From assembly GCF_016900095.1 (NCBI RefSeq), contig NZ_JACJJP010000017.1, positions 1 to 64,000 of the forward strand: a stretch of 64,000 nucleotides of DNA. The letters are read 5' to 3'. This document shows, one piece after another, positions 6,097-45,243 of the stretch; within the stretch, counting starts at the first letter, position 1, and each line of letters begins with the position of its first letter. The notes under the pieces were generated by a model. That model was not told the origin of the DNA. It did no database searches and worked only from the letters and a program-made list of their open reading frames with translations. Origin of the DNA: Gemmiger formicilis. Its GTDB lineage: Bacteria; Bacillota; Clostridia; Oscillospirales; Ruminococcaceae. A program made the position numbers and the translations under genes.

Positions 6097-6939
6097 TTAC
6101 TCGACCTCCTTCTTGAACAGGTTGCAGGCCTCTTCCCGGGCATGGGTCTCGAATTCCTTGTACATGGTGCCGCGGTGCATAGCCTCGTCAAAATCCACCT
6201 CAAAGCCGTCGAAGTCCGGCCCGTCCACGCAGGCGAACTTGGTCTGGCCGCCCACGGTCAGGCGGCAGCCGCCGCACATGCCGGTGCCGTCCACCATGAT
6301 GGGGTTCATGGAGACGATGGTCTTGACATTGTGGGGTTTGGTGGTCTTGACCACAAACTTCATCATGATCAGGGGGCCGATGGTGATGACCTCGTCGAAG
6401 GTTTCGCCGCCGGAAAGCTTTTCTTCCAGGGGCACGGTGACCACGCCCTTGCGGCCGTAGGAACCGTCGTCGGTCATGATGATGAGCTCATCGCAGCAGG
6501 CGCGGAACTCATCTTCCAGAATGACCAGGTCCTTGTCACGGAAGCCCACGATGCCGGTGACCTTGGTGCCCTGGGCATGCAGGGCCTGGGCCACGGGCAG
6601 GGCGATGGCGCAGCCCACGCCGCCGCCCACCACGCAGACCTTCTTGAGGCCTTCGATCTCGGTGGCTTTGCCCAGCGGGCCCACAAAGTCGTGGACAAAA
6701 CCGCCCTCAGGCAGGGTGTTGAGTTCCATGGTGCCGGCGCCCACCACCTGGAAGATGATGGTGACGGTGCCCGCCTGCCGGTCATACCCCGCAATGGTCA
6801 GCGGGATGCGCTCGCTGTCCGCCTTGGCGCGGATGATGATGAACTGCCCTGCCTTGGCCTTTTTGGCGATCAGCGGTGCCTCGATGACCAGCTCGGTCAC
6901 CGTGGGGTTCAGTTCGCGTCTTTTCACGATTTTGAACAC
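6097..6939 (-). CDS. nfnA: NADH-dependent ferredoxin:NADP oxidoreductase, small subunit
   Basis: A 280-residue ferredoxin-NADP reductase-like protein of the dihydroorotate dehydrogenase electron-transfer/SudB family. It has the FAD-binding RIPLTIA (44-50), the NAD-binding VVGGGVGCA (103-111), and a C-terminal [2Fe-2S] site with Cys222, Cys225, Cys237 and Asp218. The Asp ligand and the adjacent GltD-like partner are typical of NfnA (NfnS). Translation appears to start at GTG, preceded by GCGAGGG. It is the first gene of a two-gene operon; a TATAAT box on the minus strand at 7025-7030 may be its promoter. Confidence 0.9.
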   Translation of the reverse strand: MFKIVKRRELNPTVTELVIEAPLIAKKAKAGQFIIIRAKADSERIPLTIAGYDRQAGTVTIIFQVVGAGTMELNTLPEGGFVHDFVGPLGKATEIEGLKKVCVVGGGVGCAIALPVAQALHAQGTKVTGIVGFRDKDLVILEDEFRACCDELIIMTDDGSYGRKGVVTVPLEEKLSGGETFDEVITIGPLIMMKFVVKTTKPHNVKTIVSMNPIMVDGTGMCGGCRLTVGGQTKFACVDGPDFDGFEVDFDEAMHRGTMYKEFETHAREEACNLFKKEVE

Positions 6940-7323
6940 TGTTGTACCCTCGCTTTTCCTGCGGGCGGCGCGGCGCGTACCGGCCTGGCCCGGTAATGTT
7001 TGCCGGCTGTGGGGCAGTCGGCCTATTATAAGTTATTGTACGGCATTTTTTTCCGAAAGTAAAGCACAAAAACCGTGCCTTTGCCCCGGTGCAGAACAGG
7101 CAGGGGGCTTTTCCCGCGGCGGGTTTTGTGCTATAATTGAAAATTATCGTATCGGACCATGGTTTCCGGCGCTTGTTTTCGGCTTTTTTTGCGCATTTTT
7201 CACCCGCAAAGCCAAAAAAGGCATTGCGCCCAAAAACGGTTTGGTATAAGATAAAGGTGGAACAGATTCGGAAACCTTCCCCGGTAATACCGGGAGATCT
7301 TTCTGTTAAGAGGAGCGCGACTT
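6940..7323. other. intergenic region between nfnA and transketolase
   Basis: A 384 bp divergent spacer with no gene-like reading frame. It holds a minus-strand TATAAT (7025-7030) for nfnA and two plus-strand -10 candidates (7132-7137 and 7245-7250) for transketolase. The leader between them is T- and A-rich and can form an imperfect hairpin (GGCTTT / AAAGCC around 7170-7215). No known riboswitch is evident. Confidence 0.5.
7129..7137 (+). promoter_or_regulatory. extended -10 promoter of the transketolase operon
   Basis: TGCTATAAT is a perfect extended -10. No good -35 is visible, as expected for this promoter type. It would give a leader of about 180 nt. Confidence 0.55.
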
Positions 7324-8193
7324 ATGTTAAAACAAGATATGTTGCAGCTGAAGATGACTGCAACCCGCGTGCGCATGGGCATCATTGAAGCAACCCATGC
7401 CGCCAAGAGCGGGCATCCCGGCGGCAGCCTTTCGGCCGCGGATGCGCTGACCTATCTGTACTTCAAGGAAATGCAGATCGACCCCGAAAACCCGCAGGCC
7501 CCCGACCGTGACCGGTTCGTGTTGTCCAAGGGCCATGCGGCACCGGGGTTGTATTCGGTGTTGGCGGAGCGGGGCTTCTTCCCGGTGGAAGACCTGCGCA
7601 CCCTGCGCCATCTGGGCAGCTACCTGGAAGGTCATCCCAACATGAACACCGTGCCCGGCGTTGACATGAGCACCGGCAGCCTGGGGCAGGGCGTTTCGGC
7701 AGCCTGCGGCATGGCGTTGGCCGCGCGCACCCAGAAGAAGGACATCAACGTCTACACCATCATGGGCGACGGCGAGATCGAAGAGGGCGAATGCTGGGAG
7801 GCTTTCATGTTTGCTTCCCACTACAAGCTGGACAATCTGTGCATCATGATCGATGTGAACGGGCTGCAGATCGACGGCGCCACCAGCTCCATCATGAACA
7901 GCGAACCTCTGGACCAGAAGATGGACGCCTTCGGCTTCAACACCATCGTGTGCAATGGCAACTCCTTCAACGATCTGGAGCAGGCCTTTGTGCTGTTTGA
8001 CCGGTCCCACGGCAGCGGCAAGCCCACCTGCATGCTGCTGCACACCACCAAGGGCATGGGCGTCAGCTTTATGGAGAATGCCGTTGCCTGGCACGGCAAA
8101 GGCCCCAACGATGAAGAATACCAGCGCGCCATGGCGGAGCTGCAGGCTGCCCATGATCAGCTGGAGAAGGAGTATGAACAATGGCTGAAGTAA
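7324..8193 (+). CDS. transketolase, N-terminal subunit
   Basis: The thiamine diphosphate-binding half of a split transketolase, 289 residues. Family motifs are KSGHPGGSLS, SKGHAAPGLY and the TPP/metal site MGDGEIEEGECWEA. It acts with the next gene product to move two-carbon units between sugar phosphates in the non-oxidative pentose phosphate pathway. GAGGAG precedes the ATG. Its 3' end overlaps the next gene by 13 bp. Split transketolases are common in clostridia and archaea. Confidence 0.95.
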   Translation: MLKQDMLQLKMTATRVRMGIIEATHAAKSGHPGGSLSAADALTYLYFKEMQIDPENPQAPDRDRFVLSKGHAAPGLYSVLAERGFFPVEDLRTLRHLGSYLEGHPNMNTVPGVDMSTGSLGQGVSAACGMALAARTQKKDINVYTIMGDGEIEEGECWEAFMFASHYKLDNLCIMIDVNGLQIDGATSSIMNSEPLDQKMDAFGFNTIVCNGNSFNDLEQAFVLFDRSHGSGKPTCMLLHTTKGMGVSFMENAVAWHGKGPNDEEYQRAMAELQAAHDQLEKEYEQWLK

Positions 8194-9134
8194 AAAAGAT
8201 CGCCACCCGTGACAGCTACGGCGCGGCACTGGTGGAACTGGCGGATGCCGGCCACGACGATCTGGTCGTATTTGACGCCGACCTTTCGGCTTCCACCAAG
8301 ACGGCTGTCTTCGCCAAGGCATACCCGGCCCGCTTCTTCAACTGCGGCATTGCCGAGGGCAACATGATGGGCGTGGCCGCCGGCATGAGCACCTTCGGCT
8401 ATGTGCCTTTTGTTTCCAGCTTTGCCATGTTTGCGGCCGGCCGCGCCTGGGAGCAGGTGCGCAACTCCATCGGCTACCCCCATCTGAACGTGAAGATCGC
8501 CGCCACCCACGGCGGTCTGTCGGTGGGTGAGGACGGCGCTTCCCACCAGTGCTGCGAGGACTTCGCCCTCATGCGGGTCATTCCCGGCATGACCGTGATC
8601 TGCCCCGCCGACGACGTGGAAGCCAAGGCCGCCGTGAAGGCCGCCTACTCCCACAACGGCCCGGTGTATCTGCGCCTGTCCCGTCTGGCCACCCCGGTGT
8701 TCCATGACCCCGAAAAGTATCATTTCGAGATCGGCAAGGGCGAAACCCTGACCGACGGCTTCGATATTGCGGTGATCTCCACCGGCCTGATGACCAGCGA
8801 GGCCCTGAAGGCCGCCCTGCAGCTGAAAAAGCAGGGCACCCTGAGCGTGCGGGTCATCAACATGCCCTGCATCAAGCCCCTGGACGAAGAGCTGGTTCTG
8901 CGCGCCGCCAGGGAGTGCAAGAAGATCGTCACGGTGGAAGAGCACAGCATCATCGGCGGCCTGGGCGAAGCGGTCTGCTCTCTGCTGGCCGAAAAGTGCC
9001 CCACCCCCGTACGCCGCATCGGCGTGAAGGACGCCTACGGCCACTCCGGTCCGGCCTGGGACGTGCTGCGTGAGTACGGCCTGACCGCCGAGGCCATCGC
9101 GGACGAAATCCAGGATTTCGCCAAAGAAGAGTAA
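8181..9134 (+). CDS. transketolase, C-terminal subunit
   Basis: The pyrimidine-binding and C-terminal half of split transketolase, 317 residues. It carries the catalytic-Glu segment NCGIAEGNMMGVAAGMSTFG and, later, the THGGLSVGEDGASHQ loop. The start overlaps the end of the N-terminal subunit gene, with AAGGAG inside that gene, so the two subunits should be made in a coupled way. A strong terminator follows. Confidence 0.95.
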   Translation: MAEVKKIATRDSYGAALVELADAGHDDLVVFDADLSASTKTAVFAKAYPARFFNCGIAEGNMMGVAAGMSTFGYVPFVSSFAMFAAGRAWEQVRNSIGYPHLNVKIAATHGGLSVGEDGASHQCCEDFALMRVIPGMTVICPADDVEAKAAVKAAYSHNGPVYLRLSRLATPVFHDPEKYHFEIGKGETLTDGFDIAVISTGLMTSEALKAALQLKKQGTLSVRVINMPCIKPLDEELVLRAARECKKIVTVEEHSIIGGLGEAVCSLLAEKCPTPVRRIGVKDAYGHSGPAWDVLREYGLTAEAIADEIQDFAKEE

Positions 9135-9148
9135 TCCAATAAAATATA

Positions 9149-9193
9149 ACAGCCCGGATGTTTCGCAGGAAGCATCCGGGCTGTTTTTGTTTT
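9149..9193. terminator. terminator after transketolase
   Basis: A 12 bp perfect stem (ACAGCCCGGATG / CATCCGGGCTGT) with a T-rich tail lies between convergent genes. It also lies downstream of the minus-strand glycan operon. Confidence 0.85.
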
Positions 9194-9215
9194 GTCCAAA
9201 GGCGTACAGGGGAAC

Positions 9216-9584
9216 TCAGTGAACAGGTGTTCCGATGTGTTTTTCCAGTCGCCACCGGGGAGCCGGACCATCGTCCGCCCAATATTCCTCCATAGAAGCG
9301 ATCCGATCCCCCCTGATTTTTATAAAGGAAGTCACATGGCAGGACAGGCTTTGATCCCTGGCGCGCACGTTGGTCACCGTGATGATCAGGTCGCGAAGAC
9401 GTTCCACCCGCTCCACCGTTCCTTCCCAGTCCCCCGGATATTCACAATTGGCAATCAGGAATTCATCAAGGGTAAACCGTTCATTGGTGCAATGCCAGGT
9501 CACCCGGGCATCCGGATGAAAATACTTTCTGATTTCCTGCGCGTTCTGGTCCAGTATTGCTTTCCAAAAGGCGTATATATCCAT
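9216..9584 (-). CDS. NTF2-like (SnoaL-like) domain protein
   Basis: A small protein of 122 residues with the pattern of NTF2/SnoaL-like alpha+beta barrels: an N-terminal helix (FWKAILDQNAQEIRKYF) followed by HPDARVTWHCTNERFT and a C-terminal EEYWADDGPAP segment. Such folds serve as small-molecule binders or enzymes; nothing here fixes the function. The start follows GGAGATACCGC. It lies 30 bp after the GT6 gene on the same strand, so it may be the last gene of the glycan operon, although its base composition is less GC-rich and it looks unrelated to glycan synthesis. Confidence 0.75.
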   Translation of the reverse strand: MDIYAFWKAILDQNAQEIRKYFHPDARVTWHCTNERFTLDEFLIANCEYPGDWEGTVERVERLRDLIITVTNVRARDQSLSCHVTSFIKIRGDRIASMEEYWADDGPAPRWRLEKHIGTPVH

Positions 9585-9614
9585 GCGGTATCTCCTATCC
9601 ACGCATCGTACCGG

Positions 9615-10460
9615 TCATTGCCCGCTCTTCACTTTCTTGCCCAGCAAGGTATCCCGGGCACAGAGAAGATAGGGCAGATAGTTTTCGCAGGCGGCCTCCC
9701 ACTTGCGGCGCACAAAGCTGCGCCGGGGGCCTTCGTTGTGTTTGATGGCTCCCACATTGATCCATTTGCTCTTCTGGCGCACCAGAAGATGGGGCGCAAA
9801 GGGCTGTTCCACGTCCTCCGGCATACAGTAGCCCGGGTCCAGCACCCGGAACCGCCGGGGCTGCTCCGCCACCAGGCGGTTGAGCTGGCTTTCGTCATGC
9901 CAGCGGGCAATGACCCCGTCGGCCAGATCGGCCTCGGTGCGGTCGTTGAGGGTGTGGCACAGCCAGAGGAACGCCTGGGCCGTGCCCCCGTTGAAGCCCC
10001 CCGCCACGTAGACCTGCCCGGCGTTGTAGGGCATGCAGGCCCGGCTGCGGGGGTTGCGGTCATAGGGCAGGAAGTACGGCTTTTTGTGCCAGTAACCCAG
10101 ATGGCAGGCCACCACCAGGTCTTCCCCCTTTTCCGGGCGGGGCAGAACGTCCGCCGGGGTGATTTGGGCGGTGCACAGCAGGTTGGCGTTGGCAAAATAC
10201 AGATAATCGCAGCTGCGCAGTTCCTCCTCCGCCTGCAGAAAGACCGCAAACCGCTTGAGGGTGCTGTAGGGCCAGTCGTAGGCTTTCTGGTAGATGCGGC
10301 GCACGGCGGGGTCGTCGTCATGGTCGATGCGCTCGGCGTCGGTGAAGACGTAGTAGGTTTTTTCCACGCCGGGAAGGAAGTTCTGTTGAAAACTTTGGAA
10401 AAAATCCGGCCAGAAGACGGTGTACGCCCCGGTGCAGATATACAGAATGCCGACTTTCAT
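9615..10460 (-). CDS. GT6-family glycosyltransferase (histo-blood-group ABO transferase homologue)
   Basis: A 281-residue family GT6 enzyme, the family of human A/B blood-group transferases and alpha-1,3-galactosyltransferase. Visible landmarks: FFQSFQQNFLPG, YDWPYSTLKRF (61-71), the DXD-equivalent FANANL with Asn-Ala-Asn at 91-93, AGGFNGG (153-159) and WHDESQLN (187-194). Bacterial GT6 enzymes are known to carry NXN instead of DXD and to work without metal. They transfer alpha-Gal or alpha-GalNAc to galactose, often only when that galactose is alpha-1,2-fucosylated. A fucosyltransferase gene lies three genes upstream in the same operon. The start overlaps the flippase stop by 4 bp (ATGA). 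Glycine at the position equivalent to residue 268 of the human enzymes hints at GalNAc; that is inference. Confidence 0.92.
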   Translation of the reverse strand: MKVGILYICTGAYTVFWPDFFQSFQQNFLPGVEKTYYVFTDAERIDHDDDPAVRRIYQKAYDWPYSTLKRFAVFLQAEEELRSCDYLYFANANLLCTAQITPADVLPRPEKGEDLVVACHLGYWHKKPYFLPYDRNPRSRACMPYNAGQVYVAGGFNGGTAQAFLWLCHTLNDRTEADLADGVIARWHDESQLNRLVAEQPRRFRVLDPGYCMPEDVEQPFAPHLLVRQKSKWINVGAIKHNEGPRRSFVRRKWEAACENYLPYLLCARDTLLGKKVKSGQ

Positions 10461-40511: not shown

Positions 40512-40547
40512 CACCCGTCCGCAGATTGCGGGCGGGTGTTTTTGTTT
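40512..40547 (+). terminator. terminator of prfC
   Basis: CACCCGTCCGCA / TGCGGGCGGGTG (one G-T pair) with a 3 nt loop is followed by a T run. Confidence 0.8.
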
Positions 40548-40561
40548 GTTGGGCACCGTCC

Positions 40562-40590
40562 TTGTCCTGTCCCCGGTTGTGTGGTATAAT
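40562..40590 (+). promoter_or_regulatory. promoter of the radical SAM operon
   Basis: TTGTCC and TATAAT are separated by 17 bp, and TGG precedes the -10. It is 83 bp before the first ATG. Confidence 0.75.
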
Positions 40591-40673
40591 AGCCACAAAT
40601 TTCTGAAACGTTTTTGTCTGGGTCGGTTTTGTGACCGAACCCACTTTTTGAATATGATACAGGAGGGTATCTC

Positions 40674-42062
40674 ATGCCGCTTTTGAGCCGGGCCGAGACC
40701 CAGTTTCTGCGCCGCCATCTGGACCACGTGTGCCACGTCACCCTGGACCCGGACGGTCCCGGCGCCCTGCGCATCCATCTGGTGCCCAGCCGGCACCAGC
40801 ACACCGCCGTACCCTTTGTGGCCATCCTCAACGGGCGGGACATTCTGCCCCTGAGTGTCTCCTGGGCCATTCTGCTGGCCAACCTGATGGAAGCCCTGCA
40901 GCCCTATGAGGGCCGCCGGATGGAGGAAGAAGAACAGAAACAGGCGGCCGAAACCGCCGTACAGGCCACCGCCGCCGTTTACAGACAAACGCCAACGGAA
41001 CAGATCGCCGCCGATTTGGATTCCATGATGACCTCCCTGCTGGCCATTGCCCGGGGCGAAACCCCGCCGGTGGAGGTACAGCCCATGGACCTGGGGGCCT
41101 ATGCCCCCCACATGGCGGCCCCCCACCGCGTGGACCTGCTCGTCAGCGCCATGGTCAAGGATGGCGCCTGGCACTGCAACCAGAAATGTCTGCACTGCTA
41201 CGCCGCCCGCCAGCCTTACGGCGAAACCGAGGAGCTGGACACCGACCAGTGGCTGGCCGTCATCCAGAAATGCCGCACCGCGGGCATTCCCCAGCTGACC
41301 TTTACCGGCGGCGAACCCACCCTGCGCCACGACCTGGTCAAGCTGGTGGACGCCGCCCAGTGGTTTGTGACCCGGCTGAACACCAACGGCCGGATGCTCA
41401 CCAGCGCCTTGTGCCACGATCTGTACGAGGCCAGCCTGGACAGCGTGCAGGTCACCCTGTATTCCGCCGAAGAATCGGTTCATAATACCCTGGTGGGGGC
41501 CCCCGGCTTTGCCGACACGGTGGCGGGCATCCGCAATGCCCTGGCCGCCGGGCTGAACGTGAGCATCAACACCCCGCTGTGCAGCCTGAACAAGGACTAC
41601 GCCGCCACCCTGGCCCTGGCCCACGAACTGGGCATCCGGTACGCCACCTGCAGCGGGCTGATCCCCGCCGGCAGCGCCCAGACCCCCGAAAGCCGGGGCA
41701 CCCGGCTGAGCCCCGGGGAGCTGACCCGGGTGCTGCGGGAAGCCCTGGACTTTGCCAATGCCCACGGGATGGAGCTGGATTTCACCAGCCCCGGCTGGCT
41801 GTCCGACGAAACCTTGCAGCAACTGGGCTTCAAACAGGTGCCCAGCTGCGGGGCCTGCCTGTCCAACATGGCCATTGCCCCGGACGGCACCGTCCTGCCC
41901 TGCCAGAGCTGGCTGTGCGGCCCTGGTCTGGGCAACATCCTGCACCAGCCCTGGCGGCGCATCTGGAACCACCCGGCCTGCCGGCGTATCCGCCGCCAAA
42001 GCGCCAAAATGCTGCACATCTGCCCCCTGGGTGAAACACCTTTGAAGGAGGACGCGCCATGA
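40674..42062 (+). CDS. radical SAM protein with SPASM-like C-terminus
   Basis: A 462-residue radical SAM enzyme. An N-terminal domain of about 150 residues has no recognised family. The core carries Cys168-x3-Cys172-x2-Cys175 (WHCNQKCLHCYAA) for the [4Fe-4S] cluster and TGGEPTLR (211-218) for SAM binding. The C-terminal part has further cysteines at 392, 395, 410, 415, 436 and 450 (SCGACLSNMAI, LPCQSW), the pattern of a SPASM or Twitch domain that holds auxiliary Fe-S clusters in peptide-modifying enzymes. AGGAGGG precedes the ATG. The stop overlaps the ATG of a membrane protein with a Cys-Ala tail, a possible substrate. Confidence 0.88.
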   Translation: MPLLSRAETQFLRRHLDHVCHVTLDPDGPGALRIHLVPSRHQHTAVPFVAILNGRDILPLSVSWAILLANLMEALQPYEGRRMEEEEQKQAAETAVQATAAVYRQTPTEQIAADLDSMMTSLLAIARGETPPVEVQPMDLGAYAPHMAAPHRVDLLVSAMVKDGAWHCNQKCLHCYAARQPYGETEELDTDQWLAVIQKCRTAGIPQLTFTGGEPTLRHDLVKLVDAAQWFVTRLNTNGRMLTSALCHDLYEASLDSVQVTLYSAEESVHNTLVGAPGFADTVAGIRNALAAGLNVSINTPLCSLNKDYAATLALAHELGIRYATCSGLIPAGSAQTPESRGTRLSPGELTRVLREALDFANAHGMELDFTSPGWLSDETLQQLGFKQVPSCGACLSNMAIAPDGTVLPCQSWLCGPGLGNILHQPWRRIWNHPACRRIRRQSAKMLHICPLGETPLKEDAP

Positions 42063-43162
42063 AAGCCTGTGTACGTTTCCGCCGTCGCCTGACCGCCCTG
42101 TGCGCCGTCCTGCTGCTGTTGCTGCTGGCTGTTCCCTCCGCCCACGCCCAGGAAGGGGACCTGGACCGCATCAACCAATACACCGTCACTGTGGACCCCC
42201 GGGTGGACGGCAGCGCCGACATCACCTACGACATTGACTGGGAGGTCATCGGCGGCAGTTCCGAGGACCCGCTTTCCTGGGTCAAGATCGGCCTGCCCAA
42301 CGACCAGGCCAACGACTTTGAAAATCTGACCCCCGACACCGTGTCCAGCGTACGGCTGCAGAAGGAAGGCAGCAACATTTTTGCCCGCGTCACCTTTGTG
42401 CGCCGCTACTACGAACCGGTGTACGCCGCCCAGGCGGGCCAGCAGAGCCGGGTGCAGTTTGCCTTCAAGGTGCACCAGAGCTATCTGTACACCCGCAACA
42501 GCGACGGCACTGCCAGCTACGTCTTCACCCCCGGCTGGTTCGACGACCTGGAAGTGCAGAATCTGACCATCCGGTGGAAGGCCGCCGACGGCATGACCGC
42601 CGACACCGACACCCTGGAAGACGGCTACTATGTGTGGGATTTCGGCACCCTGGACCACGGGGAGAAAGCCACCGTCCGGGTTCAGATGCCCGCCGCAGCG
42701 GTGGCCGCCTATGACCCCGCCACCGAAATGCCCGCTTCGGCCCAATCCGACCCCATGGGGACCGTGCTGGCGGTGCTGCTCTTTTCCGGTGTGCTGGGCC
42801 TGATCGTCTATCTCCTCTACCGGCAATCCGCCCGGCCCCACTGGCGGGGCGGCTTCAGCGACGGGGAGGTGCTGTGGTACACCAACGGGGTGCACACCAT
42901 CCACCTGGCCCCGGGAGCGGTGCCCCCTTCCGGGTACCGGCCTACCAATCCCCCCGCCGGGTTCCATGCCGACGGCGGGTCCTTCCGGGGCGGCGGCGCC
43001 GGACGCACCGGCGGCAGCTGTGCCTGCGCCTGTGTGGCCAGCTGTGCCTGTGCCTGCGCCTGTGCGGGCGGCGGACGAGCCGGCTGCAGCGTAAAGAACT
43101 TCTACCGCATTGCCGTGACCACCGGCAAGGAGGACGGCAAGGAGGAATCCCATGAGCATTGA
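42059..43162 (+). CDS. exported one-TM protein with Cys-Ala-rich cytoplasmic tail
   Basis: A 367-residue protein. A signal peptide (1-30, ending PSAHA) is followed by an extracellular domain (31-230) like the N-part of DUF2207 proteins (VDPRVDGSADITYDIDWEV). One membrane helix (about 233-254) and a cytoplasmic tail follow. The tail is Gly/Pro-rich and then carries an alternating Cys-Ala run (Cys321, 323, 325, 329, 331, 333, 335) plus Cys343 in GGGRAGCS. Function is unknown. The gene overlaps the radical SAM gene by 4 bp and the AAA+ gene by 11 bp, so all three are surely co-expressed. The cysteines could bind metal, or be modified by the radical SAM enzyme. Confidence 0.75.
   Translation: MKACVRFRRRLTALCAVLLLLLLAVPSAHAQEGDLDRINQYTVTVDPRVDGSADITYDIDWEVIGGSSEDPLSWVKIGLPNDQANDFENLTPDTVSSVRLQKEGSNIFARVTFVRRYYEPVYAAQAGQQSRVQFAFKVHQSYLYTRNSDGTASYVFTPGWFDDLEVQNLTIRWKAADGMTADTDTLEDGYYVWDFGTLDHGEKATVRVQMPAAAVAAYDPATEMPASAQSDPMGTVLAVLLFSGVLGLIVYLLYRQSARPHWRGGFSDGEVLWYTNGVHTIHLAPGAVPPSGYRPTNPPAGFHADGGSFRGGGAGRTGGSCACACVASCACACACAGGGRAGCSVKNFYRIAVTTGKEDGKEESHEH
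43016..43066 (+). repeat. Cys-Ala codon repeat
   Basis: A run of TGT/TGC and GCC codons (unit like TGTGCCTGCGCC) encodes the alternating Cys-Ala tail. Codons vary between TGT and TGC, so the pattern is kept at protein level and is not simply a slipped DNA repeat. Confidence 0.7.
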
Positions 43163-45197
43163 GGACGGATACGACGCCTGGGTGCGGGGCCTGATGGGCT
43201 CCGCCCGGGGCGCGGACAAGCAGCAGGCCGACGCAGCCGCCGCCAGCCTGGCGGACATGCAGGCCCAGCTGGATGCTCTGACCGCCGCCAAAAAGCGCAG
43301 CCGCGGCACCCGCAACGTGCTGGATGCGGTGGACAAGGCGGCGGCCGCCACCACCGAGAACGTGCGCCGGATGAGCAGCGAGCTCACCCGCAACCTGCGC
43401 ACCGACGGACTTTTGCAGAACGCCCCCGCCCAGCCTGCGGCCGCCCCGGCCCGGGGTGCGGGGTTCGAGGGCCTGGCCGCCGAGGTCCGCACCGAAGTGC
43501 TGGGCCAGGACGCCTTTGTGGCGGATGTGGTCAAGGCCTTCCGCCGTCCCTTTGTCATGGGCACCGAGGACCCCCGCAAAGCCCGGGGGCCCATGCTGCT
43601 CTGCGGGCCGGAGGGCACCGGCCGCCACTATACCCTGCGGTGTGTGGTGCGCCGGATGGCCGACCGGGGGCTTTTGCCCAACGCCGACATCGACACCCTG
43701 GACCTGGCGCTGTACCCCGGCCCCGCCCAGGAAAAACTGTTTTTGCAGGATCTGTACGCCGCCCTGCAGTCCCCCGCCCAGGTGCTGGCCTTTGACCATT
43801 ACGAGGCCTGTGCCGCCTCCTACCTGAACATGCTGGCCGATCTGGCCATGGACGGCACCCTGGCTTTGTCCAGCCGGTATGTATTGCAGCGGGGGATTCT
43901 GGTGGACGTGGGCACCGCCCTGGCCCCCGGCGCCGTGGGCGAGCTGAGCGCCAGTGGCAAATACTTCGTCTTTTTCTCCGAGAAGGACGAGGCCGCCCTG
44001 GCCGACCGGTTCGGCGCCCGGTTTGTGGACGCCCTGGCCGGGGATATCTGCCGCACCGATCCCTTCACCCCCGAAAGCCTGGCGGCCATCGCCGCCCGGG
44101 AGCTGAATTTTCTGGCCCAGAAAACCCGCCGCCAATGCGGGCTGGCCCTGTCCATGGGTGCCGACCTGCGGGACTACCTGGCCGCCCAGTACGGCAAGCG
44201 GGGCGGCATGAGCGCCATGCGGGACTTTGCCGACCGGCTTTTCCGGGCACTGGCGGAATACGTGCTTTCCTCCGACACCGCCCCCGCCGACGGCACCCCC
44301 GTCACCCTGACGGTGCGGGAGGGCCGGATCTTCGCCGACGTGAACGGGGGCGAGCCCTTTGACCTGCTGGCCCTTCTGCCCCAGCAATACCGGGGTGATG
44401 TGGAAGCGGTGGAGGCCGAGCTGGACCGGATTGTGGGCCTGGACGAGGTGAAAGCCTACGTGCGGGACATTGCCAAAAACGTGCAGGCCCAGCAGCGGCG
44501 CAAGGCCCAGGGTCTGCCGGTGGCGGAAATCAACATGCACATGATCTTTACCGGCAATCCCGGCACCGGCAAGACCACCATTGCCCGGATTCTGGCCAAG
44601 TACCTGAAAGCCATCGGGGCGCTGGCCGGCGGGCAGCTGGTGGAGGTGGGCCGGGCCGACCTGGTGGGCCGGTATGTGGGCCACACCGCCCCCCTGACCA
44701 ACCAGGTCATCAACAGTGCCCTGGGCGGGGTGCTCTTCATCGACGAAGCCTACAGCCTCTACCGCGGGGGCGAAGACAGCTTCGGCCTGGAGGCCATCGA
44801 CACCCTGGTCAAGGGCATTGAGGACCACCGCAACGACCTGGTGGTGGTGCTGGCCGGGTACACCCGGGAAATGCAGACCTTCCTGGCCGCCAACTCCGGG
44901 CTGGCCAGCCGGTTCCCCAACCAGATCGAGTTTCCCGACTACACCGCCGACGAGCTGTGGGCGATCACCCGGTCCCTGGCCCAGGCCAAGGGCTACCGCC
45001 TGGACGAGGGCTGCGCCCTGCCCCTGAAGAGCTGGTTTGCCCGCCGCCAGGCCACGGACGCCGCCAAGGCCGGCAACGGCCGCATGGCCCGCAACGTCCT
45101 GGAACGGGCCATCCTGAACCAGTCCCGCCGCCTGGTGGCCGACCCGGCCGCCCCCCTGGACCTGCTTTTGCCCGGGGATTTTGAGCTGGACGAATAA
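43152..45197 (+). CDS. two-module AAA+ ATPase (CbxX/SpoVK-type second module)
   Basis: A 681-residue AAA+ protein. An N-terminal helical, Ala-rich region (1-105) is followed by a ClpB-like first module whose Walker A is GPEGTGRH (152-159, the Lys replaced by Arg) and Walker B is VLAFDHYEA, so it is probably inactive. The second module (about 425-681) is of the CbxX/CfqX/SpoVK type with intact Walker A GNPGTGKTT (468-476), Walker B VLFIDEA (527-533) and GLASRFPNQIEF. AAGGAGG precedes the ATG, which lies inside the end of the Cys-Ala tail gene. CbxX-type ATPases remodel protein complexes; the client may be the neighbour. Confidence 0.85.
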   Translation: MSIEDGYDAWVRGLMGSARGADKQQADAAAASLADMQAQLDALTAAKKRSRGTRNVLDAVDKAAAATTENVRRMSSELTRNLRTDGLLQNAPAQPAAAPARGAGFEGLAAEVRTEVLGQDAFVADVVKAFRRPFVMGTEDPRKARGPMLLCGPEGTGRHYTLRCVVRRMADRGLLPNADIDTLDLALYPGPAQEKLFLQDLYAALQSPAQVLAFDHYEACAASYLNMLADLAMDGTLALSSRYVLQRGILVDVGTALAPGAVGELSASGKYFVFFSEKDEAALADRFGARFVDALAGDICRTDPFTPESLAAIAARELNFLAQKTRRQCGLALSMGADLRDYLAAQYGKRGGMSAMRDFADRLFRALAEYVLSSDTAPADGTPVTLTVREGRIFADVNGGEPFDLLALLPQQYRGDVEAVEAELDRIVGLDEVKAYVRDIAKNVQAQQRRKAQGLPVAEINMHMIFTGNPGTGKTTIARILAKYLKAIGALAGGQLVEVGRADLVGRYVGHTAPLTNQVINSALGGVLFIDEAYSLYRGGEDSFGLEAIDTLVKGIEDHRNDLVVVLAGYTREMQTFLAANSGLASRFPNQIEFPDYTADELWAITRSLAQAKGYRLDEGCALPLKSWFARRQATDAAKAGNGRMARNVLERAILNQSRRLVADPAAPLDLLLPGDFELDE

Positions 45198-45208
45198 AAC
45201 CGAAACAT

Positions 45209-45243
45209 GCCTTGCCCGGTTTTCCGGGCAGGGCTTTTTGTTT
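45209..45243 (+). terminator. terminator of the radical SAM operon
   Basis: GCCTTGCCCGG / CCGGGCAGGGC (one G-T pair) with a 4 nt loop and five T. Confidence 0.85.

Follow-up and report, generated by a model that had tools for sequence, protein, structure and literature searches.

The window, i.e., the whole stretch of 64,000 nucleotides analysed here (positions 1 to 64,000 of contig NZ_JACJJP010000017.1), belongs to a genome of 3.26 Mb in 98 contigs, whose closest named relatives are Gemmiger. It harbours three overlapping genes, which code for a radical S-adenosylmethionine (SAM) enzyme, a membrane protein with a predicted cytoplasmic tail rich in cysteine and alanine (the "tail protein"), and a two-module AAA+ protein. 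In our best reading, the first two genes constitute an unrecognised maturation pair for the cytoplasmic tail of DUF2207-like membrane proteins. The locus comprises the following features, where RRE denotes a recognition element for ribosomally synthesised and post-translationally modified peptides (RiPPs), aa amino acids and pLDDT the predicted local distance difference test score:

40512-40538: terminator of the upstream gene, 5' of the promoter-like site
40562-40590, + strand: promoter-like site TTGTCC-17-TATAAT (10/12 matches; consensus match only)
40674-42062, + strand: radical SAM enzyme gene, 462 aa
40674-41051, + strand: N-terminal domain of the enzyme, residues 1-126, RRE-like by fold only
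41175-41198, + strand: CX3CX2C motif CNQKCLHC for the SAM-binding [4Fe-4S] cluster
41847-42023, + strand: Twitch/SPASM-like region, with C392, C395, C410 and C450 invariant in the alignment
42059-43162, + strand: tail protein gene, 367 aa, with DUF2207-like ectodomain, transmembrane helix and cytoplasmic tail
42164-42688, + strand: beta-sandwich ectodomain, residues 36-210 (predicted structure, block means mostly >90 pLDDT)
42752-42832, + strand: transmembrane helix, residues 232-258 approximately (model and hydropathy)
43019-43090, + strand: Cys-Ala tail CACACVASCACACACAGGGRAGCS, residues C321-S344, proposed substrate of the enzyme
43152-45197, + strand: two-module AAA+ protein gene, 681 aa, a lineage-specific neighbour outside the core
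45209-45234, + strand: terminator-like hairpin followed by a T-run (consensus match only)

A previous sequence-only reading had described this region as one overlapping three-gene operon, and the description holds upon re-reading of the open reading frames (ORFs): consecutive genes overlap by 4 and 11 bp, an AGGAGG-like site precedes each of them, and the promoter-like and terminator-like sites flank the set. The proposed radical SAM protein with additional C-terminal cysteines is supported by matches to the Pfam families Radical_SAM (PF04055, 65 bits) and SPASM (PF13186, 36.7 bits, above the cut-off of 21.5). Likewise, the second gene indeed codes for an exported protein with a single transmembrane helix and seven tail cysteines before GGGRAGC, the alternation of cysteine and alanine being broken once (VAS).

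The enzyme and the tail protein are encoded together throughout their distribution. A one-protein scan of contigs from 84,980 species, which reaches close relatives only, yielded 46 named loci, 41 of which have the enzyme immediately next to a complete tail; in four of the remaining five (L014, L032, L041, L056) the contig runs out ahead of the tail or within it. Among 391 genomes of the class, an enzyme profile of 20 rows (expect value, E, 1e-60) detected the enzyme in 10, and a tail profile of 17 rows (E 0.01) matched 15 genomes, including all 10 enzyme carriers. Genome G553 contains a convincing tail on a contig that starts within the enzyme gene. The tail match and the enzyme of G391 and G430 are located on separate contigs, both at contig ends, and in G570 the enzyme-adjacent tail is cut by a contig end, with a second match at the end of another contig. 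The 197 genomes of the family show the same coincidence: the enzyme is present in seven and the tail protein in the same seven. Two further family genomes gave weak tail matches, namely G092, in a stretch with seven stops, and G041 (L157), which encodes an ordinary-looking DUF2207-like relative that differs from the tail protein by a Gly/Ser tail without Cys repeat; it has a LemA-like gene upstream and no radical SAM gene. Among the 61 nearest relatives, the enzyme is carried by 31 of the 35 genomes of the window's own genus, and no enzyme match falls between 65.4 and 706 bits.

The enzyme was found in eight families of the class and in other classes. Across 398 genomes of the phylum (E 1e-60), 14 matches comprise the window, 10 genomes of families f134 and f196 (316-350 bits) and three of family f93 (205-218 bits). 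The tail gene lies beside the enzyme in 12 of these 13 distant genomes: nine neighbourhoods were inspected and all nine have the repeat protein next door (in G805 cut inside the tail), while in G935, G757 and G953 the tail match is about 1.1-1.3 kb from the enzyme. In the thirteenth, G915, no tail was seen on a contig that ends 1.2 kb past the enzyme and contains 186 N. In the class that includes G629 (17 genomes), 12 genomes have the enzyme (E 1e-40) and 10 match the tail profile (E 0.01), nine of the latter being enzyme carriers; the carriers without a match are G805, where the cut tail is visible, and G915 and G965, whose contigs end shortly past the enzyme. The class of G588 (five genomes) has the enzyme in three. 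An explanation by shared lineage alone was rejected in view of the eight families, the additional classes and an enzyme copy from the window's family (G043; L007/L147) that groups with those of Lachnospiraceae and suggests transfer. A phage origin was likewise rejected, since scans of viral contigs with the tail pattern and the enzyme profile found no relative.

The gene order varies while the pair is kept: the enzyme may come first, follow two tail genes (L084), or follow a single tail gene (L152-L154). At L084 (G436, 6782-10078) the two tail-protein genes form a tandem 5' of one enzyme gene. At L047 (5803-8481) the enzyme and the tail protein form one ORF of 892 aa, with a second piece of the enzyme in another frame, probably due to an assembly indel. 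Contigs often break off within the repeat tail or close to it (L041, L089, L095, L156), and hence tails are probably under-counted in draft genomes.

The tail itself bears the marks of strong constraint. Tail strings were collected with a search pattern requiring CACACACA, or a closely similar sequence, ahead of the end motif, which gave 36 distinct strings after removal of the window copies, several loci covering one place. Their 264 non-final cysteines are followed by Ala (241), Val (20), His (2) or Tyr (1); subtracting the 144 alanines fixed by the pattern (four per string) leaves 120 cysteines, followed by Ala in 97 cases, Val in 20, His in two and Tyr in one. The tails are composed of C-A or C-V units, between which S, SS or HSS-like spacers may stand; the last cysteine is set apart, within GRAGC, GRVGC, GGAGC, RGAGC or SSGGCT. 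In 14 Gemmiger-like rows, the proportions of non-synonymous (pN) and synonymous (pS) differences in the 18-residue tail core are 0.011 and 0.546 (ratio 0.020), compared to 0.257 and 0.511 (ratio 0.502) in the ectodomain and a ratio of 0.565 in the 21 residues past the core; over all 33 aligned rows the ratios are 0.12 for the core and 0.63 for the ectodomain. The tail core is therefore the most constrained part tested: its codons vary freely, its residues do not, and this argues against a composition due to chance. The codon of the last tail cysteine (43085-43087 in the window) is TGC in 32 of 33 rows, and the codons of the other tail cysteines are mixed.

A run of cysteines in the cytoplasm could also serve as a metal-binding or Fe-S element, either metallothionein-like or as a sensor, in which case the enzyme would load or build the site without covalent change. 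The 6-11 closely spaced cysteines per uncut tail, some of them separated by His or Ser, fit such a site, as does a zinc-ribbon-like stretch that follows the transmembrane helix in 10 of 33 partners. Yet, Ala or Val after nearly every cysteine, even outside the part fixed by the pattern, exceeds what metal binding needs, and the partner enzyme has the build of a peptide maturase. We consider this explanation improbable.

The tail protein of the window consists of a signal-like N-terminus, the beta-sandwich ectodomain, the transmembrane helix and a Gly-rich tail, in which 23 residues follow CACACVASCACACACAGGGRAGCS; residues 305-367 are unstructured in the model (pLDDT <50). Across the 33 aligned rows the partners measure 344-472 aa, all have a transmembrane-like segment and 32 have a strongly hydrophobic N-terminus. 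In 30 of the 33 the stretch after the transmembrane segment is more positive than the stretch before it, which places the tail inside, and from this we infer a cytoplasmic topology. The match to DUF2207 (PF09972) reaches 21.4 bits and stays below the gathering cut-off of 24.4, and six relatives of the tail protein gave no PF09972 match at E 0.01. A fold search with the ectodomain returned ribophorin-like, LppM and M1-aminopeptidase beta-sandwich matches of low template modelling (TM) score and no functional lead. The f93 partner is related to the family of the window protein by profile comparison (99.5%), with a distant ectodomain and a long additional cytoplasmic part; its C-terminal end coincides exactly with CACACACACASSGGCT. 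TPM proteins often accompany DUF2207 proteins. At L148 (f134, another class; 7166-8469) a TPM-domain gene and a LemA gene lie 3' of the tail protein gene and link it to the DUF2207/LemA group; similar-looking ORFs are present at L149-L150. Pairs of DUF2207 and LemA are noted in passages of PMC12631010. Similar to the tail protein, DUF2207 proteins comprise a large extracellular N-terminal part, a transmembrane segment and an intracellular Gly/Ser-rich C-terminal part, as described in sections of PMC10457818.

The enzyme carries the canonical CX3CX2C motif, the three cysteines of which are invariant in 35 of 35 aligned rows. Regarding the seven-cysteine SPASM motif as quoted in parts of PMC6231123, CX9GX4C is present and CX2CX5CX3C absent in the window enzyme and nine other near relatives checked, and both elements are present in five of six distant enzymes; judged by these motifs, the auxiliary region of the window enzyme is Twitch-like. 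Membership in a named NCBIfam radical SAM family was rejected, since scores remained below the cut-offs among the matches listed. No radical SAM equivalog passed (best 90.7 bits versus a cut-off of 500, among the best 25 of 57 matches), three relatives of the enzyme did not reach a cut-off either (among the 25 matches listed for each), and no NCBIfam model among the matches listed covers the enzyme or the tail protein at its cut-off. A defence system was also considered and discarded: the PADLOC matches at E 1e-5 correspond to viperin-type radical SAM proteins and generic AAA proteins.

A structure model built from an alignment of 35 sequences (mean pLDDT 82) arranges the enzyme as a helix, four strands and three helices, leading into the radical SAM barrel and, at the C-terminus, a short Twitch-like part. 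SkfB is the best match both in a profile search of Protein Data Bank sequences (E 7e-19) and by Foldseek (E 4e-14, 407 columns, TM-score 0.51 of the query, root-mean-square deviation, rmsd, 7.3). SuiB ranks second by Foldseek (424-452 columns), and CteB (439-472) and TigE (466) follow lower within the first 16, whereas anSME, BlsE and PqqE give shorter alignments of 304-331 columns. These columns count gaps, CteB and TigE superpose poorly (rmsd 13.7-16.1), and long but poor alignments were also obtained for HydG (385) and biotin synthase (369-370). BlsE and anSME are not known to possess an RRE. An N-terminal RRE is carried by SkfB, CteB and SuiB according to passages of PMC6231123, and PqqE is without one according to excerpts of PMC8326336. 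The N-terminal domain of the window enzyme is called RRE-like because RRE enzymes align over more columns than PqqE-type enzymes, and its secondary structure is in line with this; sequence searches with this domain were matchless, and Pfam PqqD was found in none of seven N-terminal pieces. By its predicted structure, the enzyme models best on maturases of the RRE-radical SAM-SPASM/Twitch build.

Pairing, adjacency, purifying selection and a maturase-like predicted fold together point to a maturation pair of enzyme and tail, and we assign a probability of roughly 0.88 to the tail being the substrate of the enzyme. The substrate role of the tail had been suggested by the sequence-only reading, and the coincidence of tail and enzyme among the 391 class genomes and in seven of the 197 family genomes lends support to it; a tail widespread without a radical SAM gene was not encountered in the class and family genomes. 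A covalent radical SAM modification of some kind at the Cys or Ala residues of the tail is likely.

Several observations weigh against this interpretation. A weak tail match in G702 (E 0.003), a genome of the G629 class, comes without a radical SAM gene and is unexplained; it lies in a minus-strand frame of contig 128 (75001-75087, L175). Weak matches without radical SAM gene also occur in the class genomes G253, G286, G229 and G449, which look spurious, as their translations contain no such tail. The partner frame at L035 (7381-7692) stops after 103 aa, 39 bases from the contig end, and in G511 and G058 the tail gene next to the enzyme gene is disrupted. At the G511 locus (L087, 7660-10592) three opposite-strand ORFs split the tail gene, as if an element had inserted, and the tail piece is open; at the G058 locus (L160, 6149-8634) a stop or frame break interrupts the tail gene, parts of enzyme and tail remain, and an assembly error may be responsible. 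Moreover, hydropathy scores the Cys-Ala tail itself as a hydrophobic segment in six of 33 rows, including the window. The RRE assignment derives from fold comparison with modest TM-scores and no sequence match, the partner is not built like the usual RiPP precursors, which are small and consist of leader and core, and the product or structure of a modified tail is a prediction.

The proposed mechanism starts with the membrane protein, which would be exported by its signal peptide such that the DUF2207-like domain folds outside, the transmembrane helix anchors the protein and the Gly- and Cys-Ala-rich tail stays in the cytoplasm. We infer that the enzyme binds and modifies this tail, perhaps by means of its RRE-like N-terminal domain and the conserved (G/S)(G/S)GRAGC(S/T)xK end. 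A 5'-deoxyadenosyl radical would then be formed and act on the C-A units, possibly by abstracting a hydrogen atom from Ala prior to C-S bond formation, and the auxiliary cluster of the Twitch/SPASM region might bind Cys or take up an electron. The likeliest products would be thioethers between Cys and a carbon of a neighbouring Ala (or Val), and the chances that the modification is of the thioether type are about even. Such a reaction would leave the membrane protein, which would be neither cut off nor secreted, with a crosslinked, rigid or metal/redox-tuned tail. A more far-reaching and tentative version, to which we give somewhat less than even odds, holds that C-A-C-A tails become a thioether ladder with Ala, linking Cys to the alpha or beta carbon, as a Firmicutes-wide, permanent crosslinked or metal-holding device; the version with bonds to the beta carbon would amount to lanthionine made by radical chemistry.

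The same substrate might instead undergo another covalent change, such as Cys oxidation as by sulfatase maturases, epimerisation or C-C bond formation at Ala. SPASM/Twitch enzymes catalyse many reactions, anSME is among the Foldseek matches, and the second-ranking SuiB cross-links two side chains, as stated in portions of PMC6231123. However, the best profile and fold match, SkfB, is a thioether former, and the tail is dense in Cys donors, which makes a change of another type rather unlikely.

Both halves of the proposed thioether maturation have precedent, SkfB for the Ala acceptor and QhpD for the protein subunit. The window enzyme resembles SkfB, AlbA and related sactisynthases in its domain order by predicted fold, the CX3CX2C motif and the Twitch-like Cys set, and in the Cys-containing substrate encoded alongside (as outlined in parts of PMC6231123). 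It differs in that its proposed substrate is a membrane protein of 367 aa rather than a small peptide, and it scores 45.9 bits versus the cut-off of 300 for the SkfB equivalog. SkfB uses Ala as acceptor and abstracts the alpha hydrogen, according to sections of PMC8326336. QhpD, set beside the window enzyme by description rather than by sequence, is a radical SAM enzyme that places three thioethers in QhpC, a functional, operon-encoded subunit of quinohemoprotein amine dehydrogenase; in contrast to the window protein, QhpC has a 28-residue leader, which is removed before periplasmic translocation, and Asp/Glu acceptors (extracts of PMC7876137). The maturases of SCIFFs and ranthipeptides, CteB and PapB, share multi-Cys substrates and, in CteB, the RRE-SPASM build, and SCIFFs are widespread in Clostridia, yet their substrates are short and use Thr, Asp or Asn acceptors (passages of PMC8326336). 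The PapB model scored 62 versus 340 bits for a distant relative and was not among the best 25 matches of the window enzyme. The nearest published analogue seen are the Asp-Cys repeat peptides of radical SAM clusters 59 and 115, with alternating Cys beside an uncharacterised radical SAM enzyme; these clusters contain Asp-Cys peptides and a recombinase or several radical SAM genes, and section 4 of PMC9062424 describes no membrane protein.

In light of the enzyme architecture the pair might be regarded as a secreted bacteriocin-type RiPP with an unusually long precursor, an explanation of very low probability. The precursor would be a membrane protein with a predicted folded ectodomain, and the enzyme behaves like a stable trait of the genus. 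Neighbouring gene families, which were clustered and not annotated individually, recur mostly within clades and in at most 11 of 56 loci, and no dedicated peptidase or exporter was found among the three window genes.

The third gene of the window codes for an AAA+ protein with a SpoVK/CbbX-like C-terminal module, in which GNPGTGKT and FIDEA are intact, and an N-terminal module with GxGRH at the expected site of the Walker A lysine in 24 of 24 rows (22 distinct proteins, with the window and G081 represented twice). Hence, the earlier notion of "one dead, one live" module stands as a reading of motifs. The protein falls below the equivalog cut-offs of SpoVK (303.6 versus 422.95) and CbbX (237.8 versus 459.25), which are nearest by similarity.

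The products of all three genes could work as a single machine, with the AAA+ protein remodelling the modified membrane protein or extracting it. In agreement with this view, the genes overlap in the window, and the AAA+ gene follows the pair in 18 of 46 named loci and adjoins it in six of seven family genomes with the pair. The wider distribution does not fit: of the 197 family genomes, 22 have a full-length AAA+ orthologue, yet 16 of these have no radical SAM gene, and six such regions (L141-L146) contain neither enzyme nor tail gene nearby. In L144 the genes for an HtrA-like protein, a methyltransferase and prfC lie upstream of the AAA+ gene as in the window, with neither radical SAM nor tail gene between. 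The AAA+ gene is absent from 21 named pair loci with at least 1 kb downstream and was not adjacent in any distant locus inspected; in an enzyme tree of 51 rows its adjacency (18 rows) needs two changes and is confined to two clades. Given the orthologues without radical SAM gene and the two clades, the AAA+ protein is not part of the core, a three-gene system is rejected, and a single machine is decidedly improbable. Of the inference made by the sequence-only reading, the link between the radical SAM enzyme and the tail survives, and the suggested role of the AAA+ protein as a motor acting on the tail is not supported. Probably the AAA+ gene was at the locus before the pair arrived next to it; in the window's lineage its product may also target the tail protein.

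Searches of an open-access library brought up no paper recognised as describing the pair, which is weak evidence of absence, as subscription papers and preprints were not covered. Radical SAM maturation as such is established, mostly with small peptides as targets and in a few cases with enzyme subunits; the new part would be the predicted substrate class, the tail of an integral membrane protein. If the proposal is correct, radical protein modification would extend to membrane proteins, DUF2207-type proteins of unknown function would gain a handle, and a simple two-gene test system would be available for a pair that spans several classes of gut and related Firmicutes.

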